Origin: an uncultured bacterium | GTDB taxonomy: Bacteria > Planctomycetota > UBA8108 > UBA1146 | Length of the DNA: 64,000 bases | Assembly: GCA_913056395.1 (NCBI GenBank) | Contig: CAJXMG010000013.1 | Span: 1-64,000 of the forward strand | Reading direction: 5' to 3' | Part shown: piece by piece, positions 61,344 to 64,000 of the stretch | Position numbering within the stretch: the stretch's first letter is position 1 | Layout: every line of letters starts with the position of its first letter | Made by a program: the position numbers and the translations under genes | The notes under the pieces: model-generated | Seen by the model: only the letters and a program-made list of their open reading frames with translations | What the model was told of the DNA's origin: nothing | Databases searched by the model: none

Positions 61344-61368
61344 ATGACGATTGCGGAAAGGGATCTCC

Positions 61369-64000
61369 ATGCACTGGATCCTCATCATGCTTCTCGGTAT
61401 CGGTTCCCTGGCTCAGGAATCAGACTCACCGGTCGACCCCGTGGGTGGGGATGGTCCCAAGGGAAGCCTGAAGTTTCAGATCACGGATACCAATGATGAC
61501 CCTGTGCCATCGAGACTGACGTTCCGCAAACAGGATGGAAGTCGGCAAAAGTTTTTCAGTGAAACTCAGGTGCTTCCGGAAGATCTCGCGATTCGCGACG
61601 ACGTGATTTGCACCCTCTCGGGGACAGGTCACATCACTCTGCCAGTCGGAACCTGGGTGATTTATGCCAGCCGCGGTCCCGAGTGGGGAATCGATCGCCA
61701 GGAAGTTTCCATTGCCGAAGGTGCCGTGACGGAAGCCTCTTTTCAATTAGAGCATCAGATCGACTCCAGTGGTTGGGCGGCTGCCGACTATCACTTGCAT
61801 ACCCTGACCTACTCGGGGCATGGCGACAGCAATATGACAGAACGGATCATCAGCATCGCCAGTGAAGCTCTCGAGGTTGGAATCGCCACTGATCACAATC
61901 ATCACACCGACTACAACCCGACCATCGAGAAACTGTCCGCGGGAGATCACTTTCAGGGTGTCGTCGGTAACGAGATCTCGGTCCCCCTCGGTCACTTCAA
62001 TGCCTTCCCCCTCGAGCCCTGGGGAGAAGTGGTCGACGTTCAATCCTCCAACGGTCCGCGCATGTTTCGTGCGGTCCGCAAGATGGGCACTGGAGGAGTC
62101 ACCCCTGTGATTCAGGTCAATCACCCCCGGTGGGAAGCGATCGATTACTTCCGAATCGCCGGTCTCGATCCCATCACCGGTGAATCCGCAGACACCGATT
62201 GGTCCATCGATTTTGACAGTGTCGAAATCTTCAATGAAAATCCGGGCTGGGGTTACTACGACGCCGAAACCAGTGACCGATTTGTCGGTACCAGTCGCCA
62301 CTCCGTTCTGGAGGATTGGCACCAGCTTCTCAATCGCGGTGCACGCATCACCGCGGTCGGAAACTCTGACAGTCACACCGTCAACGTCAACCTCGCCGGT
62401 TGGCCACGGAATTACTTTCCCGTTTCCAATGATCAGCCGGGTCAAATTCCGGTGAAAGAAATCTGTGACACCGTCAAGAATGGTCAGGTCTTTACCACTT
62501 ACGGCCCTTTCATCAAATTTTCCGTCAATGGCAAGGGCATGGGTGAAACCGTACAGGCAGAGAGGGCCGCAGTTCGCCTCAAGGTGGAGGTCCACGCGGC
62601 AGACTGGATCGACGTTGATCGGGTTCTCGTCATCGTTGACGGTGATGTGGTCGAAACGATTCCGGTCCCGGACTCCCGGGAAATCGTGAGGCTGATCGAT
62701 GAGCGCAAGATTCCGGTTCGCACCGACGGCTGGATCGCTGTTCGGGTCGAAGGGGATGACAGCCTTGCACCCATCGTTCCCGACAAGGACCGCCCGATTC
62801 TTCCCATCGCCATGACCAATCCGGTCTACGTCGACGTCGATGGAGATGGTCGTGTCACGGCCCCCGTCGAAGTCGCGCGCAATTGGCTGGAAAAGTTCTC
62901 GGGAAATGAGATCGAACTGCATGCGGAATGGCAGGCACGTCAGCCTCACCAGCGGGTCTCGATGCTCCATGCCTGTGATCAGGATTCTGAAACCGTCCGC
63001 ACACTGTTGCTTTGGGGACTGCAGGATCCTTCTCGCCTCGTCTGGCTTGCCGCTGCCAGAACCACCGAGTTGCTGGAGATTCGCAATGATTCCGCACTGA
63101 CCCGGGAGTTGGTCTATCGCTTTGAATCCCCCGGTCTGGATGCGTGGGCTCTCTCTGTCCTGTTGAGGGCGATGCCCCCTGAAGAAAGTGGTCCCAGGGT
63201 CGCTGAACTGTTGGGGAGCAAGGGCAAGGAAGCTCTCGGAATTCATACCCGTCAGATCCTCGCACTACTGCCGGGACAATTTGTGCGCAGGATGTTTGTC
63301 TCCGAACCCATTCCAGGTGGTGGTGAAGAAGGAATTCGTCGGGTGCTTTCGATGTCTGCAGAGGATCGCCCCACCCAAAGGGTGCTGCTCTCCACTGAGG
63401 AGGGGCAATTTGATCTGCGGCAATATGGCAAAGAGCGCGGGCGGTCCGATGATTGTGTCTTCGTTCTTCGCTGTACACTCATCAGTCCCACAGATCGTAC
63501 GGTCACTCTCGCTGCCGGTTCGGATGATGGCTGCCTCCTGCAGGTGAACGGCAACACCTTCGTTGAAGATTTCGCCGATCAGGGAGTGGATCCCCTCGAT
63601 CACCTGATTCAGGTACCGCTGAAACAGGGGACCAATGAGGTGCTCTTTCTCATCGCCAACGGCAGCGGTAAATCAGGAGCATCCCTGAGAATTCTCGATG
63701 ACGAAGTGGTGGTACAGTCCGCTGAGGGCAGCAAGCGTCCCCCCATCTCGCCTCGCCAGAGGGTTCTCTCTGATATGGCAGCTTTGCATGCCGCCGCAAC
63801 CCTCTATCGCCTGAATCAGGGTGACTGGCCGACGAGCGTCAGCGACCTGGTAGGAGCAAATCTGATCGGCAATCTCACCACTGACCCATGGGGTAATGAA
63901 TACAGAATTGTGGCGAGGGAGGAGAAGGTGGAAATTCTCTCACTCGGTGCCGATGGATCTGAGGGTGGTATCGGCATCGAGGCGGATATCCGCTACGCGC
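61369..64000 (+). CDS. PHP-domain (CehA/McbA-like) protein fused to a GspG-like pseudopilin domain, 3' end outside
   Basis: The frame is open from the ATG at 61369 (after AAAGGGATC) to the window end, at least 877 residues. A signal peptide (ILIMLLGIGSLAQ) and a beta domain (~25-130) precede a PHP-like metallohydrolase region: ADYHLHTLTYSGHG (~139), GIATDHNHHTDY and NSDSHTVNVNLAG as metal-binding His/Asp clusters, like CehA/McbA-type enzymes. A beta-sandwich part (~380-500), a helical repeat part (~510-640) and another beta domain (~660-790) follow. The end (~800-877) reads ALHAAATLYRLNQGDWPTS, TDPWGNEYRIV and LSLGADGSEGG, the globular C-terminal domain of GspG pseudopilins but without the N-terminal pilin helix. 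Substrate unknown, probably extracytoplasmic. Confidence 0.8.
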   Translation, partial: MHWILIMLLGIGSLAQESDSPVDPVGGDGPKGSLKFQITDTNDDPVPSRLTFRKQDGSRQKFFSETQVLPEDLAIRDDVICTLSGTGHITLPVGTWVIYASRGPEWGIDRQEVSIAEGAVTEASFQLEHQIDSSGWAAADYHLHTLTYSGHGDSNMTERIISIASEALEVGIATDHNHHTDYNPTIEKLSAGDHFQGVVGNEISVPLGHFNAFPLEPWGEVVDVQSSNGPRMFRAVRKMGTGGVTPVIQVNHPRWEAIDYFRIAGLDPITGESADTDWSIDFDSVEIFNENPGWGYYDAETSDRFVGTSRHSVLEDWHQLLNRGARITAVGNSDSHTVNVNLAGWPRNYFPVSNDQPGQIPVKEICDTVKNGQVFTTYGPFIKFSVNGKGMGETVQAERAAVRLKVEVHAADWIDVDRVLVIVDGDVVETIPVPDSREIVRLIDERKIPVRTDGWIAVRVEGDDSLAPIVPDKDRPILPIAMTNPVYVDVDGDGRVTAPVEVARNWLEKFSGNEIELHAEWQARQPHQRVSMLHACDQDSETVRTLLLWGLQDPSRLVWLAAARTTELLEIRNDSALTRELVYRFESPGLDAWALSVLLRAMPPEESGPRVAELLGSKGKEALGIHTRQILALLPGQFVRRMFVSEPIPGGGEEGIRRVLSMSAEDRPTQRVLLSTEEGQFDLRQYGKERGRSDDCVFVLRCTLISPTDRTVTLAAGSDDGCLLQVNGNTFVEDFADQGVDPLDHLIQVPLKQGTNEVLFLIANGSGKSGASLRILDDEVVVQSAEGSKRPPISPRQRVLSDMAALHAAATLYRLNQGDWPTSVSDLVGANLIGNLTTDPWGNEYRIVAREEKVEILSLGADGSEGGIGIEADIRYA

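Follow-up and report, generated by a model that had tools for sequence, protein, structure and literature searches.

What is the head of a type II secretion pseudopilin doing at the end of an enzyme? The question is raised by a gene at the end of the window, i.e., the whole 64,000-nucleotide stretch of DNA that was analyzed, which makes up bases 1-64000 of contig C13 in a genome of 2.77 Mb. The relatives of this genome are planctomycete MAGs, many of which are marked as marine by their names. The gene, which occupies 61369..64000 of the window on the forward strand (as do the parts of the gene described below), encodes a CehA/McbA-type PHP metallohydrolase that ends in a T2SSG module.

One gene, one reading frame

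To be regarded as a domain fusion, the two parts must belong to the same gene. A preliminary description of the locus had named the sequence past position 64000, and a start codon between the two domains in relatives, as points on which the fusion could be checked, and both were decided in its favor. The frame opens with the ATG at 61369 and closes at a TAG at contig 64003-64005, giving a product of 878 amino acids; the window end splits the last codon, which together with the TAG spans contig 64000-64005. Each complete relative also has one frame through both parts, which rules out that two genes were misread as one. In a single MAG (G009), Ns and a broken frame were found just before the module (locus L102), and the module follows directly behind (L085).

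The ATG is preceded by a probable ribosome binding site, GGAAAGGG (61355..61362), and is common to close relatives, in which an identical AAAGG is found upstream. It is followed by a signal-peptide-like N-terminus, MHWILIMLLGIGSLAQE (61369..61419); this segment is short and, in the copy of the window, of low hydrophobicity, and was recognized by inspection. Judged from this signal-peptide-like N-terminus, the hydrolase is probably exported.

The enzyme and its middle domains

Residues 135-489 (61771..62835) form the CehA/McbA PHP-type metallohydrolase domain, as indicated by the NF038032 model for CehA/McbA (167 bits, curated cut-off 80), by alignment, and by Foldseek, which matched the domain to the PHP protein 2anu with a probability of 1.0. 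Ten residues, namely D140, H142, H144, D175, H176, E202, H209, H252, D334 and H336, are invariant in an alignment of 38 sequences; by analogy with PHP enzymes in general, they would be the metal ligands. Together, the model score and the conserved metal-site residues predict that the enzyme is a CehA/McbA-type PHP metallohydrolase. A helical, HEAT-like region follows at residues 499-633 (62863..63267), based on the predicted structure and a weak HEAT_2 match in a relative, and next to it lies a PA14-like beta domain, residues 640-783 (63286..63717), for which Foldseek retrieved PA14 sugar-binding domains and one relative gave a weak PA14 match. The AlphaFold model of the full chain places the end of this PA14-like domain at about residue 783; residues 785-792 (63721..63744), with pLDDT below 50, constitute a linker, and it is here that the orthologues lacking the module end.

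The C-terminal module is a GspG head lacking the pilin helix

The preliminary description had proposed that the chain ends in the globular domain of pseudopilin G, with no pilin N-terminal helix, and had suggested the T2SSG profile and structure prediction as tests. Profile, PDB and fold matches all bore this out for a helix-less GspG (T2SSG) module at residues 795-876 (63751..63996). The Pfam T2SSG profile (PF08334) matched residues 801-875 at 36-37 bits, above its cut-off of 21 (E 8.4e-9 to 8.8e-9). Searched against the PDB as a single sequence, the module retrieved the GspG structures 3gn9 (E 1e-7) and 3fu1 (E 6e-7), and a profile of the orthologous modules reached Vibrio EpsG (3gn9) at E 3e-15; all significant PDB matches were GspG proteins. 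On the TIGR01710 equivalog model, the module scored 37.1 bits, far under the cut-off of 88.85. A search of the window protein for an N_methyl match or pilin motif (class III signal, helix 1N) found none.

Structure prediction led to the same fold. In the full AlphaFold model, residues 795-877 are a separate folded domain with pLDDT mostly about 85-91, apart from one weak block (861-870) at 55. When predicted alone, the module obtained a pLDDT of 87.6 and comprised three strands and two helices, one of them long and the other short. In a Foldseek search with this model, the first 14 rows were pseudopilin structures, the best solved matches being GspG 3gn9 and 4lw9 (TM 0.77). The profile and fold evidence together rule out a chance T2SSG match.

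The orthologous modules share 22 invariant positions, including DPW and LGADG.EGG.G...D. The latter lies in the equivalent of the EpsG-type calcium loop, LGADGSEGGIGIEAD (residues 859-873; 63943..63987), an assignment made for the CehA module from the invariant positions and by alignment to EpsG. Folding and function of GspG itself need calcium (PMC6692295, PMC10574481).

The module was probably gained within one family and is under selection

Enzyme orthologues were gathered by a search that names organisms. The module was found in 12 relatives, all of them members of the window's own family; with the window copy, this makes 13, distributed over four genera. The two orthologues of the fifth genus of the family (g5; genomes G010 and G012) end at about residue 785, without the module, and a further 38 orthologues from outside the family, mostly Phycisphaerae and all with the 3' end present, also lack it, stopping 1-17 amino acids past the last matched residue (query residue ~774-794). 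In the enzyme tree (38 rows, module columns removed), presence of the module switches once, with a support of 100. Since the g5 orthologues lack the module and stop at the junction, the sequences are most simply explained by the addition of the module to a pre-existing enzyme through a gain inside the window's family; the alternative is a loss in g5.

Such a terminal extension could also be an accidental, functionless fusion of a gspG fragment, or an artefact of assembly. The module indeed changes faster than the enzyme (e.g., 90% vs 99% identity), as an idle appendage might. However, the same junction occurs in 13 genomes, which rules out the assembly artefact, and the dN/dS of the module is 0.04-0.24 in close pairs, i.e., the module is under purifying selection. 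Conservation of the calcium-loop residues and the parallel case described below also speak against a functionless fusion, which we consider highly improbable.

A second, unrelated exported hydrolase downstream

An exported M1 peptidase (HEVGH motif) is encoded 4.4 kb downstream, beyond the window (contig C13 68428-71076; L003:7429-10077). Its C-terminus, DPFGSEF...SAGPDGNPGTDDDL, is T2SSG-like, and this M1 module is present in 16/16 family genomes; in relatives from the same class (G018, G020 and G023; 51-56% identity), the M1 peptidase stops before it. The match of the M1 module to Pfam T2SSG was weak (E 0.054). With a profile of the module, GspG structures nonetheless topped the PDB list (29jd, E 3e-4; 1t92, E 7e-4), and in close relatives the next best place for this profile was the CehA module (E 1e-4 to 1e-3). 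Direct comparison of the two module profiles by hhalign gave a probability of 89 and E 2e-6.

The loop types of the two modules differ, being of PulG/PERCAL type in the M1 module and of EpsG type in the CehA module, and of the two, genus g5 has only the M1 module; the simplest reading of both facts is that two separate gains took place. The PERCAL calcium motif, G-x-D-G-x-x-[GN]-[TN]-x-D-D, includes the GspG of E. coli (3G20) (PMC3396595). The M1 sequence GPDGNPGTDDD fits it exactly, whereas the longer, EpsG-type loop of the CehA module does not.

Type II secretion genes and the possibility of an export tag

The genome also has a true GspG, a protein of 144 amino acids with an N_methyl match and a TIGR01710 score of 91.3 bits. 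It is encoded on contig C23, inside a T2SS cluster (L004; contig C23 9000-24000) that contains a secretin, T2SSE, T2SSF, further N_methyl pseudopilins and a T2SSJ-like gene. Except for the M1 peptidase, the remaining T2SSG-like matches of the window genome are pilins, such that its helix-less enzyme hosts number two only, the CehA-type hydrolase and the M1 peptidase. Nearly all sampled genomes contain T2SS or related pilins, whose co-occurrence with the modules therefore cannot discriminate between readings.

One reading is that the module serves as a type II secretion export tag, by which the enzyme, once folded, is marked to leave through the secretin. In other bacteria, T2SS signals are structural and involve multiple sites (PMC7949064), and C-terminal gains have occurred on two unrelated exported hydrolases in one family. 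In addition, GspC was sought in the 16 family genomes and was above cut-off in 0/16, which leaves the known recruiter either absent or beyond recognition; cargo recruitment in this family may consequently differ from the proteobacterial model, although this is context and not proof. Against a tag stand the small number of such hosts in the window's genome (the above two) and the fact that we know of no T2SS substrate that carries a pseudopilin domain. Elsewhere in the phylum, moreover, modules are found inside proteins and behind membrane anchors (see below), and hence a C-terminal secretion tag is too simple a description of the module; a plain C-terminal tag as the role of all modules is weakened accordingly. 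On balance, we regard an export tag as unlikely.

Helix-less T2SSG modules elsewhere in Planctomycetota

By profile search, T2SSG was found in 57/59 relatives, and its hosts were identified by reading the long frames and by Pfam; two Calditrichia genomes, of another phylum, gave no match to the T2SSG profile. Helix-less T2SSG occurs on DUF1579, DUF1259 (PF07485), DUF3352-like, DUF2961, LRR, DUF4340, TPR and zf-HC2 proteins. Further hosts are a beta-propeller/hydrolase-like protein that has no Pfam name (L065) and a membrane protein that bears the domain in one of its loops (L061). An exported protein of 489 amino acids (L068:267-1733) consists almost wholly of four tandem T2SSG domains. In TraB/PrgY/GumN-like exported proteins of Phycisphaerae (L245, L254, L255, L256, L258, L259), the domain is inserted in mid-protein, and the LRR, DUF2961 and TPR hosts likewise carry it internally. 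As far as could be read, the modules sit on extracytoplasmic parts in all hosts. A T2SSG match alone does not, then, identify a pseudopilin in Planctomycetota.

Several proteins carry the domain on a membrane anchor. In one (L072:1925-2542), a zf-HC2 (anti-sigma-like) domain is followed by one membrane helix and then T2SSG, making it a possible envelope sensor. In others, which are short (L083:2026-2442 and the next gene, L089:2636-3073, and L087:2218-2634), an ordinary membrane anchor replaces the pilin signal ahead of T2SSG; in G012, two short anchored T2SSG proteins adjoin each other. Eight loci first considered as fusions (L052, L054, L055, L060, L071, L073, L080 and L086) carry the pilin motif and were not counted; their long frames are mostly spurious upstream reading and prove no fusion.

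The domain tree, which has only ~99 columns and leaves most forks without resolution, pairs the LRR module of G033 with that genome's own GspG (support 97), and the DUF3352-like module of G043 (listed again as G074) also with its own-genome GspG (support 99). A single family of all non-pilin modules was rejected (AU test, p 3e-64). These trees indicate that helix-less modules arose several times. The preliminary description had held that the module seems reused on an exported enzyme, and this is supported, beyond what the letters alone could tell, by its gain within the window's family, the purifying selection on it, and the parallel cases on other exported proteins.

What the captured head may do

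Repeated capture on extracytoplasmic parts, together with the kept calcium-loop residues, argues for the module being a working domain. On this account, the PHP metallohydrolase acquired at its C-terminus, across a short linker, the entire globular domain of the T2SS major pseudopilin. It received the C-terminal half of helix 1, the short helix, the calcium loop and a beta sheet of small size, but not the membrane-spanning half of helix 1, which pseudopilins need to polymerize. Assembly of pili and pseudopili depends on helix 1 (PMC8179133), and therefore the helix-less module should not polymerize. It would presumably fold outside the cytoplasm with calcium, be unable to enter the pseudopilus, and imitate the GspG head as a docking patch, through which the hydrolase may be held at, or presented to, the machinery of type II secretion or of related pili. 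Docking is compatible with the resident T2SS cluster and with the modules elsewhere that closely copy the GspG of their own genome. We tentatively favor this putative role, that of a captured, calcium-stabilized, extracytoplasmic docking domain for secretion or pilus machinery, while giving it somewhat less than an even chance.

The internal modules, and those behind membrane helices (zf-HC2 and others), count against docking in that they would suit a general binding or sensor domain equally well. Such a calcium-stabilized extracytoplasmic domain, of GspG descent and unrelated to secretion today, might act in stability, oligomerization, or binding of cell wall or sugar, and is in our opinion a real possibility as well. 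It would accommodate the diversity of hosts and positions (C-terminal, internal, fourfold tandem, membrane-anchored, zf-HC2), the great variation of the CehA module outside its structural core, and the fit of the M1 module to the PERCAL motif, which also occurs in unrelated proteins (PMC3396595). It leaves unexplained, however, why at least two modules were copied from own-genome GspG and other calcium domains were not used instead. The balance tips slightly toward docking at the secretion or pilus machinery, and away from a general role in binding or stability, mainly because some modules derive from the GspG of their own genome.

The presence of the same domain on many unrelated exported proteins of related bacteria suggests a portable docking part. 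The broader proposition, that Planctomycetota turned their own major pseudopilin head into a transferable T2SS docking or sorting domain and joined it repeatedly to unrelated exported or envelope proteins, is doubtful. Docking would bear on how type II secretion systems select cargo, and the fused and module-less natural orthologues, which differ mainly in the module, offer a ready system for studying how docking and recruitment work. Independently of any link to secretion, a pseudopilin head can exist as a free, mobile calcium-loop domain.

Comparison with known systems

The T2SSG and CehA domains are both already known, but their fusion as a portable part seems undescribed; we found no description of helix-less pseudopilin heads as add-on domains in the open-licence papers that were searched. 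Compared to GspG, EpsG and PulG, the module is alike in its whole globular domain, the DPWGNEY strand and the LGADGxEGGxGxxADI loop, whereas the window protein is devoid of the class III signal peptide and the hydrophobic half of helix 1, its module is located at the C-terminus of an enzyme, and its gene lies outside the gsp cluster. The enzyme, for its part, resembles the CehA/McbA family metallohydrolases of NF038032 in its score above the cut-off and in the conserved metal-site residues, but adds a GspG module that its CehA/McbA relatives of Phycisphaerae and genus g5 do not have.

The closest parallel in design is provided by the modular pilins, such as PilB of Streptococcus sanguinis, in which a functional domain is likewise joined to a pilin module (PMC8179133). 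Modular pilins retain the N-terminal class III signal and the assembly helix, and enter the filament; the N-terminal, IPR012902-type pilin segment by which they are recognized (PMC8179133) is absent from the window protein. The design is thus reversed: the modular pilin keeps its helix, whereas in the helix-less window protein it is the pilin head that is the add-on.
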